Part shown: piece after piece, positions 18,290 through 19,201 of the stretch
How positions within the stretch are numbered: position 1 is the first letter of the stretch
Layout of the letters: each line of letters starts with the position of its first letter
Source of the DNA: Candidatus Avelusimicrobium bubulum
GTDB taxonomy: Bacteria; Elusimicrobiota; Elusimicrobia; Elusimicrobiales; Elusimicrobiaceae
Reading direction: 5' to 3'
NCBI GenBank assembly: GCA_902798835.1
Contig: CADBYN010000008.1
Coordinates: 1 to 37,689 of the forward strand
Length of the DNA stretch: 37,689 nt
Program-made: the position numbers and the translations under genes
The notes under the pieces: model-generated
Database searches by the model: none
What the model saw: the letters and a program-made list of their open reading frames with translations, nothing else
Told to the model about the DNA's origin: nothing

Positions 18290-18306
18290 TACAATGTACG
18301 TACAAT
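18290..18306 (+). promoter_or_regulatory. Possible -10 elements for the pilin leader RNA
   Basis: TACAAT occurs at 18290-18295 and again at 18301-18306. The second would start transcription near 18312-18314, which is exactly where the structured leader begins. Neither has a convincing -35 box, so the start is inferred. Confidence 0.35.
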
Positions 18307-18311
18307 TTATT

Positions 18312-18507
18312 CTGTTTTTGGAACCGTATGTAGAATACGGATGGCTTTGAATAAAAGCGATGAGGTACTCCAAAAACAGCTGTTAAGGTGCAAGAAAGCG
18401 GGCTTCGAAACCTAGCCCTTGCACTTAGTGTCTATCACTTTTCGTGATCGGCCGCGGCTGTTTTTGTTTGAACATGTACCTCATCTTCAGACAAAGCGGC
18501 CGTTTTT
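18312..18507 (+). ncRNA. Structured leader RNA with switch-like alternative pairing (candidate riboswitch/attenuator)
   Basis: This 338-base gap is the second longest non-coding stretch here and is packed with helices. P1 pairs 18312-18322 with 18369-18379 (11 bp) and encloses two hairpins, 18324-18329/18335-18340 and 18344-18348/18354-18358. Then come a 9-bp stem (18386-18394/18418-18426, including one GU) and a 5-bp hairpin (18434-18438/18444-18448). A two-part terminator follows at 18449-18507. The segment 18371-18380 is also perfectly complementary to 18457-18466, extendable to 13 pairs with GU, and that strand overlaps the terminator. P1, this long-range helix and the terminator therefore exclude one another. 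I matched it to none of the riboswitch consensus sequences I know, nor to 6S, SRP, tmRNA or RNase P RNA. Confidence 0.6.
18449..18507 (+). terminator. Terminator of the pilin leader RNA
   Basis: The lower stem pairs 18449-18455 with 18496-18502 (7 bp, all GC). After a 7-base bulge the upper stem pairs 18463-18470 with 18488-18495 (8 bp, one GU). Five T residues follow at 18503-18507. It ends 35 bases before the pilin start codon, so it would stop transcription before the gene unless it is prevented from folding. Confidence 0.65.
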
Positions 18508-18542
18508 GTATGCGTTTTCCAAAACAATTTAAGGAGAACGCT

Positions 18543-19148
18543 ATGCAAGAAAAAATAAATGCAAAAACCAATAAAGTCATCCTGAACTCGATTCAGGATC
18601 TTCAACGCTTGTTGTGGTCGTTACGTAACAGCGTGCGTGGAAGATTCCAGATCAAGTCTGGAATGACACTCTTGTTAAATAAAAGCGCCTTTACGCTCAT
18701 TGAGCTATTAGTTGTAGTTCTCATCATCGGCATTTTGGCCGCCATTGCGTTGCCACAATATCAAAAAGCCATAGACAAAACAAAGTATAACCAACTGAAG
18801 ATTCTTATGGTACAAGCTGTGCGCGAACAACACCTCTTCTTTTTGGAACACGGACAATATACACAACTACTATCGGATCTTGAAACGTTCAAAGGATGGA
18901 ACTCCGTTACCAACAATACGGAACATTTCCGCTCTCCCAACAACAAATTGAATTGTGGAATACATACCTACAATGGGGGTTTTCATTGCAATATTCTCGG
19001 TAACTCAATGTGGTTAGAACTTAATTATCGAGGACTATCAAAAAACGGCTCTTGTTTTGCATATCAAGAAAAAAACAAAAAAATATGTGAATCAATTGGT
19101 GCGATATGTCCTGAAAATAGTTTAATTTGCTCTCTTGCTTTTTGGTAA
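18543..19148 (+). CDS. Type IV pilin / pseudopilin with abnormally long leader
   Basis: The mature N-terminus FTLIELLVVVLIIGILAAIALPQYQKA is the class III prepilin helix that inserts in the inner membrane and assembles into a pilus or type II secretion pseudopilus (motif starts at residue 50, Glu at +5). Residue -1 is Ala (KSA|FTL) rather than Gly. A short globular part with several cysteines follows; total 201 residues. The start at 18543 is chosen because AAGGAG lies 6 bases upstream. It gives a 49-residue leader, far above the usual 5-25, because a repeat (18576-18667) is inserted in frame. An internal ATG at 18663 would give a 9-residue leader but has no ribosome site. Confidence 0.85.
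   Translation: MQEKINAKTNKVILNSIQDLQRLLWSLRNSVRGRFQIKSGMTLLLNKSAFTLIELLVVVLIIGILAAIALPQYQKAIDKTKYNQLKILMVQAVREQHLFFLEHGQYTQLLSDLETFKGWNSVTNNTEHFRSPNNKLNCGIHTYNGGFHCNILGNSMWLELNYRGLSKNGSCFAYQEKNKKICESIGAICPENSLICSLAFW
18576..18667. repeat. Double-hairpin palindromic repeat inserted in the pilin leader
   Basis: The unit begins GTCAT and ends ATGAC. It holds two perfect 8-bp hairpins with 5-base loops: 18579-18586/18592-18599 and 18644-18651/18657-18664. The sequence style (GTCATCCTGAA... ...TCTGGAATGAC) resembles dispersed palindromic elements of several bacterial groups, including the Rickettsia elements that insert in frame into genes; this likeness is from memory. It encodes residues 12-42 of the pilin precursor. 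No second copy is visible in the window. Confidence 0.7.
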
Positions 19149-19171: not shown

Positions 19172-19201
19172 ACCCGCCCCTAGCTAATTCCAGGGGCGGG
19201 T
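19172..19201. terminator. Bidirectional terminator between pilin and gyrA
   Basis: A perfect 10-bp GC-rich stem pairs 19172-19181 with 19192-19201, with a 10-base loop. An A run precedes it (a T run for the minus strand) and T-rich sequence follows, so it can serve both converging genes. Confidence 0.9.

Follow-up and report, generated by a model that had tools for sequence, protein, structure and literature searches.

A family of leader RNAs with locus-private antiterminators upstream of pilin-like genes in Elusimicrobiota, predicted to act as cis-acting transcription attenuators

A structured leader precedes a type IV pilin-like gene

The window analyzed here is a stretch of 37,689 nucleotides from Candidatus Avelusimicrobium bubulum, whose genome assembly comprises 1.35 Mb in 65 contigs. 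The open reading frame beginning at position 18543 encodes the N-terminal methylation motif of type IV pilins (PF07963), and the neighboring genes include an alpha-amylase-like gene, gyrA, gyrB, dnaN and ATP synthase genes. Upstream of this pilin-like gene lies an element that spans positions 18300–18508, corresponding to a leader RNA of ~210 nt and representing one member of a dispersed family. The gene at 18543–19148 is presumably the one under leader control. Features of the locus are as follows, where SD denotes the Shine-Dalgarno sequence and both-side changes are those affecting both partners of a base pair.

18290–18295, plus strand: probable −10 box, TACAAT; the transcript start would be near 18300–18303 at the conserved ACAATTT
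18312–18322, plus strand: strand s1, the 5′ half of helix P1, CUGUUUUUGGA; P1 is 98.8% paired in 102 copies
18324–18340, plus strand: hairpin H1; both-side changes at 6 of 6 pairs, 99.5% paired
18344–18358, plus strand: hairpin H2; both-side changes at 7 of 7 pairs
18359–18368, plus strand: private strand PKa, GAUGAGGUAC, partner of 18476–18485; helix 94.1% paired, at least 8 Watson-Crick pairs in 96.8% of 220 copies
18369–18382, plus strand: switching strand s2, the 3′ half of P1 plus CUG, predicted to pair with s1 (OFF) or s3 (ON); P1 98.8% and s2:s3 98.3% paired
18386–18426, plus strand: hairpin H3, with a 4-nt palindrome (here UCGA) in its apical loop; both-side changes at 14 of 14 pairs
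18430–18452, plus strand: hairpin H4; both-side changes at 11 of 11 pairs, family-wide
18454–18466, plus strand: strand s3, the 5′ half of the terminator or, with 18371–18383, part of the antiterminator, from folds of truncated and full transcripts
18476–18485, plus strand: private strand PKb, GUACCUCAUC, inside the terminator loop, from covariation, Watson-Crick pair counts and folds
18486–18507, plus strand: 3′ half of the terminator (s4, 18486–18503) and U-tract (18503–18507), from the fold; terminator base 99.7% paired
18504–18550, plus strand: predicted SD/AUG-masking hairpin, 18504–18511/18543–18550 plus 18512–18520/18533–18541, with the SD at 18531–18536
18543–19148, plus strand: type IV pilin-like gene, 201 aa, with its own SD (Pfam N_methyl, PF07963, E = 4.7e-6)

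The order of elements in the RNA is s1, H1, H2, PKa, s2, H3, H4, s3, PKb and s4. Given this order, PKa:PKb would form a pseudoknot only with P1 and the terminator closed at the same time; combined with s2:s3, it forms the outer part of one long antiterminator. In the predicted fold the terminator pairs 18454–18464 with 18493–18503 and 18466–18472 with 18486–18492. The folding energy of a 217-nt stretch was −77.3 kcal/mol compared with a mean of −53.2 kcal/mol for shuffled sequences (z = −5.95), and none of the 200 shuffles was as stable.

The first-pass annotation of this DNA had described an 11-bp P1 (18312–18322/18369–18379) enclosing two small hairpins, an alternative helix between 18371–18380 and 18457–18466, and a two-part terminator. 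We located each of these at the stated positions, with the two hairpins at 18324–18340 and 18344–18358 and the U-tract at 18503–18507; the alternative helix is perfect over 10 bp and reaches 13 bp as 18371–18383/18454–18466. That helix had nevertheless been drawn too short, because a 10-bp helix (18359–18368/18476–18485) extends the antiterminator outward. Also absent from the annotation was the hairpin formed by 18504–18520 and 18533–18550 over the SD and start codon.

TATAAT-like hexamers and the conserved ACAATTT occur 5′ of P1 in many copies of the element, with variable spacing. The −10 box of the window was not listed by a consensus promoter scan; judging from its sequence, a promoter at 18290–18295 with a start near 18300–18303 is probable. 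In many copies (e.g., L108, L112, L145 and L032), the region from the −10 box to the start of the element also contains an AGGAG-like motif and a further small hairpin, formed by AAGCCTTAAACGYGGCTT or by another GC-rich stem.

Two further features were noted around the pilin-like gene. Ahead of the methylation motif, an in-frame palindromic stretch at 18576–18665 (gtcatcctgaactcgattcaggatcttc...ggaagattccagatcaagtctggaatgac) lengthens the leader peptide of the pilin to ~46 aa. The stretch is reminiscent of coding palindromic repeats, its core is present in only two copies in this genome, and similar long inserts occur in several other leader-preceded pilins (L127, L128, L140 and L147). On the minus strand between the pilin and gyrA, a strong terminator-like hairpin of 12 bp with a T-run is found at 19172–19201.

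The leader belongs to a multicopy family found so far in Elusimicrobiota

When the element was compared with 100 related genomes by plain BLASTN, each genome returned many partial matches, which share one architecture. In a survey of 341 genomes of the phylum, a covariance model built from 25 copies detected the element in 94: 62 of the 66 from the same genus, 18 of 18 from the sister genus, and 14 from a second, distant family of Elusimicrobiota. Four other genera of the same bacterial family yielded no match in this survey. Genomes with the element carried 1 to 129 copies, with full counts of 129, 92, 47 and 45 in four of them; the genome with 129 copies (G060) is only 1.7 Mb, and that of the window has five. 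An exact-motif scan of ~85,000 species genomes recovered 59 stretches, every one titled Elusimicrobia, Elusimicrobium or similar, or 'uncultured bacterium', and several of these came from ruminant, horse, reindeer and roe-deer samples. Viral contigs contained 67 exact 15-mer matches, none of which was the element, and the best partial match had an E value of 0.018.

Rfam 15, including the GEMM-I, GEMM-II and T-box models, gave no match in the window at the gathering threshold and nothing credible at E values up to 10. Over the element at 18 other loci, no family matched either; the first-pass annotation had recognized no known riboswitch consensus. Our search of the literature on leader RNAs and riboswitches in Elusimicrobia found nothing describing this RNA.

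All 220 parsed copies are followed closely by an open reading frame on the same strand, and 215 of these frames have an SD and an ATG start, at a median distance of 38 nt from the U-tract. The product is pilin-like in 175 cases, and the remaining genes are mostly surface, glycosyltransferase and restriction genes. Beta-barrel outer-membrane proteins and lipoproteins are among them, as are glycosyltransferases (families 2, 8 and 9), RgpF, polysaccharide pyruvyl transferase and enzymes of the sulfatase type. EcoRI-type DNA methylases also occur, as does a PLD-helicase protein that resembles defence helicases. The methylase lies directly behind the leader at L126, L159 and L240, in two bacterial families. 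In the genome of the window most pilins lack the leader, as it has 67 N_methyl genes but only five leaders. Near-identical elements also precede unrelated genes at unrelated loci, which suggests that the element spreads or recombines.

Covariation supports the nested structure and a private helix

We examined covariation in 102 aligned copies, with 500 column shuffles and slid registers as controls. The nested structure together with the private helix had 96.4% standard pairs, compared with 77.6% after column shuffling and 36–47% in slid registers, and there were 1305 both-side changes compared with 326 in the shuffled alignments. All five covariation measures exceeded those of all 500 shuffles. 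Because both pair retention and both-side changes surpassed the controls, the structure is not due to chance, and the pairings described from the single copy in the window are retained in its relatives. Every base pair of the four hairpins (H1–H4) and of the private helix showed both-side changes. P1 and the base of the terminator hardly vary, and the U-tract columns are 91–99% T.

The helix s2:s3 is conserved as 8 bp, with 98.3% of cells paired, and the full alternative helix of 10–13 bp is particular to the window copy and a few others. Both-side changes in s2:s3 were few (5 cells), with compensating changes in a few copies. Two s2 positions outside P1 are pyrimidines opposite GG in nearly all sequences. 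P1 of the second family starts with AUG, which leaves part of s2 (CAGYCG) unpaired in P1; this sequence is mostly retained despite the loss of its P1 partner, as would be expected if s3 is the partner of s2. H1 of the second family is a plain GAAA hairpin.

The strongest covarying element was PKa:PKb, with 413 both-side changes compared with 122 in shuffled alignments. Its two strands fit in register only, as slid registers were 33.7–48.5% paired. The helix was 94.1% paired in the alignment, and its pairing was kept in 98% of copies while the sequence was almost completely replaced. At least 8 contiguous Watson-Crick pairs were found in 96.8% of the 220 copies, whereas only 0.8% retained such a helix when partners were swapped between copies. 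Among same-genome paralogues at least 75% identical elsewhere, identity in the private helix was 0.37, close to the baseline of about 0.34, whereas H2, H3 and H4 of the same pairs stayed at 0.69–0.79. Two copies in genome G044 are 91% identical elsewhere and 33% identical in the private helix.

Among the 2380 same-genome pairs with at least 70% identity elsewhere, 2 shared a private helix, compared with 41 of the 5085 such between-genome pairs (odds ratio 0.10, Fisher p = 2e-5), where the pairs are non-independent and the between-genome set includes orthologues sharing a helix by descent. PKa and PKb strands compatible in trans made up 0.20% of pairs within genomes and 0.60% between them. As comparisons of sequence, these counts indicate that the helix is private within a genome, not yet that privacy is selected. 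We also asked about a correspondence between private-helix identity and orthology of the downstream gene and rejected it, as for the most part none was seen and near-identical elements often precede unrelated genes. One copy (L039:249–468) has PKa as in L145 and PKb as in L112, such that its private strands are mismatched; it is apparently a recombinant between paralogues, with the two private strands coming from different parents.

Folding predictions support a two-state switch

When transcripts were truncated just after PKb, the minimum-energy fold of 212 of the 216 copies contained the antiterminator, and that of one copy contained P1. With the complete element, P1 and the terminator were predicted in 200 of 216 copies. 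Constrained energies favored the antiterminator by 12.6 ± 2.8 kcal/mol before s4 (−12.6) and disfavored it by 8.1 ± 3.6 kcal/mol after s4 (+8.1), the sign being the same in 216 of 216 copies at both stages. The distant family showed the same flip, in 23 of 23 truncated and 22 of 23 complete transcripts, with 23 distinct private helices. These energies come from minimum-energy folding, which ignores kinetics and tertiary structure, and nested programs do not score pseudoknots.

For the window copy, we moved the 3′ end stepwise. P1 was predicted up to 18458, invasion by s3 began at 18458–18462, the antiterminator including PKa:PKb was the best structure for 3′ ends at 18481–18501, and the terminator won from 18502. 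When PKb was replaced by a non-cognate strand, s2:s3 still formed in 151 of 213 folds, suggesting on energy grounds that the private helix helps s2:s3 but is not strictly needed. The leader has a GC-rich hairpin and U-tract before the gene and is predicted to prefer the antiterminator before the 3′ half of the terminator is made. Conservation, covariation and clean two-state folding in 216 copies support the antiterminator/terminator logic that had been proposed upstream of the pilin gene.

Conserved unpaired bases cluster around H3 and H4

The hairpins enclosed by P1 had been suggested as a possible sensor. This domain shows little resemblance to a ligand aptamer: its hairpins covary freely, and hardly any of its unpaired bases is conserved. 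Conservation of unpaired positions is instead highest at the A preceding H3, the A separating H3 from H4, and one U of the H3 loop. In 211 of 220 copies that loop carries a palindrome of 4 nt, represented by ten different palindromes, compared with 41% of shuffled loops; such sequences could mediate dimerization by kissing loops or serve as a binding site. Because unpaired positions are best conserved in the H3 loop and at the s2:s3/H3/H4 junction, our best guess is that a candidate factor binds there and favors the ON state.

A hairpin following the terminator may add a translational layer

In the window, a near-continuous 17-bp hairpin (18504–18520/18533–18550) covers the SD and the start codon. 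Across copies, the SD-masking pairing averaged −10.7 kcal/mol with true partners and −7.6 kcal/mol with swapped partners (p = 2e-13). The 5′ strand of this hairpin (s5) is also complementary to s1, with energies below −9 kcal/mol in 62% of copies compared with 4% of shuffles, and three or more sequence types of it are seen (UUUUCCAAARACAG, GGUUUCAUAAACAG and GCCCGAAAACAG). The s1:s5 pairing appeared in 38 of 88 constrained folds with little change in SD pairing, and constrained folds of the ON state gave no clear unmasking of the SD. Translational unmasking by s1:s5 is therefore offered as a weak suggestion for a second layer of control. By eye, several post-terminator strands of the second family (L229–L258) read TTTTGCCTAACAAAA, which is complementary to H2 rather than to s1.

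Proposed mechanism and alternatives

We propose, with a probability of roughly 85%, that the element is a cis-acting transcription attenuator, and that the leaders constitute an RNA family, so far found only in Elusimicrobiota, with locus-private antiterminators. In this model s1 would pair first with s2 during transcription, forming P1. Once s3 and PKb emerged, PKb would pair with PKa, which would serve as a single-stranded toehold beside s2, and s3 would then displace s1 from s2 to form the long antiterminator. If the antiterminator persisted, RNA polymerase would pass the U-tract and transcribe the pilin gene. If s4 captured s3 first, P1 would re-form, the terminator would close and transcription would stop at about 18507. 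In the readthrough mRNA the SD and start codon would be masked by the hairpin, and freed s1 may pair with its 5′ arm and unmask them. With PKa:PKb distinct in nearly all same-genome copies, each leader would recognize only itself.

What sets the choice between the two folds is a separate matter, and several readings were weighed. Up to 129 leaders of one genome share almost the same s1–s4 strands, and one tentative extension of the attenuator model is a switch array: selection would keep the private helices of these leaders distinct, and terminated leader RNAs, perhaps dimerized through H3 loops, or dedicated small RNAs would target surface or defence genes individually, so that the choice among pilins could be independent, heritable or stochastic. 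We give similar, limited credence to a stochastic switch that needs no regulator, in which a race between folds sets a fixed chance of readthrough and random subsets of pilin and surface genes are expressed, as in phase variation. The nature of the targets (pilins, outer-membrane proteins, glycosyltransferases and DNA methylases), the lack of a conserved sensor pocket in P1, and the attenuation-based pilus heterogeneity known in Streptococcus gallolyticus (PMC3894217) are consistent with such a switch, whereas the conserved unpaired bases near H3/H4 and the palindromic H3 loops suggest a factor or dimer, and a leader ORF like that of S. gallolyticus was not found. Somewhat less plausible is an orphan riboswitch in which P1, H1 and H2 make up an aptamer and a small molecule, such as a second messenger, stabilizes P1 and causes termination. 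The layout does recall known riboswitches, where a strand-exchange platform follows a P1-closed domain (PMC10907184), and pilin genes are known riboswitch targets (PMC6366702); however, no Rfam family matches up to E 10, conserved loops are missing from the covarying hairpins H1 and H2, H1 of the second family is the plain GAAA hairpin, and the conserved unpaired bases surround H3/H4 instead.

The remaining alternatives concern the role of the RNA or of its parts. PKa:PKb might not be part of an antiterminator but an OFF-state pseudoknot that holds P1 and the terminator together, a doubtful arrangement in our estimation: it lies directly against P1, could stack on it and would be invisible to nested folding programs, but the nested extension of s2:s3 was reached in 212 of 216 truncated transcripts, and a 10-bp helix within a hairpin loop of 12–13 nt would be strained. 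The first-pass annotation had also raised a free-standing small RNA, which would act on other transcripts. The element has its own promoter-like sequence and terminator, and terminated RNAs should accumulate, but with all 220 parsed copies adjoining a downstream same-strand ORF, 215 with an SD-led ATG, and with the post-terminator strand co-adapted to the SD region, we regard this option as improbable. Leader-peptide attenuation, where ribosomes would choose between the folds, was rejected and has the least claim of all. AGGAG-like sequences do occur 20–80 nt upstream in 44 of 116 copies; however, no conserved short ORF or reading frame over the switching region was found across copies, and the s1–s2 distance is spread evenly over the three frames (83/71/66).

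Relation to known systems

Strand-exchange attenuation is already known from transcriptional riboswitches of the purine and ZMP/pfl types, which have a P1-closed domain, a switching strand and toehold-like invasion (PMC10907184). The pilin leader is predicted to share these features and the competition between an antiterminator and an intrinsic terminator. It differs in having no evident conserved aptamer pocket and no Rfam match, in its abundance of up to 129 copies per genome, in the locus-private helix within the antiterminator and in the additional predicted SD-masking hairpin. Pilin leaders under terminator control are likewise known (PMC6366702, PMC3894217). The c-di-GMP riboswitch Cdi-2-4 precedes pilA1 (PMC6366702), and terminator control of type IV pilin genes is a feature of c-di-GMP riboswitches (GEMM-I, RF01051; GEMM-II, RF01786) and, by prediction, of the leader described here, although the GEMM models do not match it, the architecture differs and genomes here contain dozens of paralogous leaders. 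In the pilus phase variation of S. gallolyticus, which is also attenuation-based, a leader peptide with GCAGA repeats sets readthrough (PMC3894217); a premature terminator before the pilus locus is shared, whereas such a leader ORF was not found in the Elusimicrobia leader. What is new is the RNA family itself, its copy number and the locus-private antiterminator.

In plasmid copy-control systems such as ColE1 and pT181, diverged-loop antisense RNAs recognize a second RNA molecule in trans. Self-only recognition, with pairing kept while the sequence diverges, would be common to those RNAs and the pilin leaders, but PKa and PKb sit within one leader. As far as we know, 129 copies in 1.7 Mb is a very high number for one leader family. 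The private helices make it testable how cells stop many near-identical RNA switches from interfering with one another, and they constitute ready-made orthogonal antiterminator parts.

This structured RNA family lies outside Rfam and ranks with the principal kinds of leader upstream of surface genes in some gut Elusimicrobia, hosts that have dozens of pilin genes and whose biology is little known. Counts of N_methyl pilin-like genes ranged from 18 to at least 150 per 1.3–1.8-Mb genome (G000, G040, G060, G044, G055 and G127).
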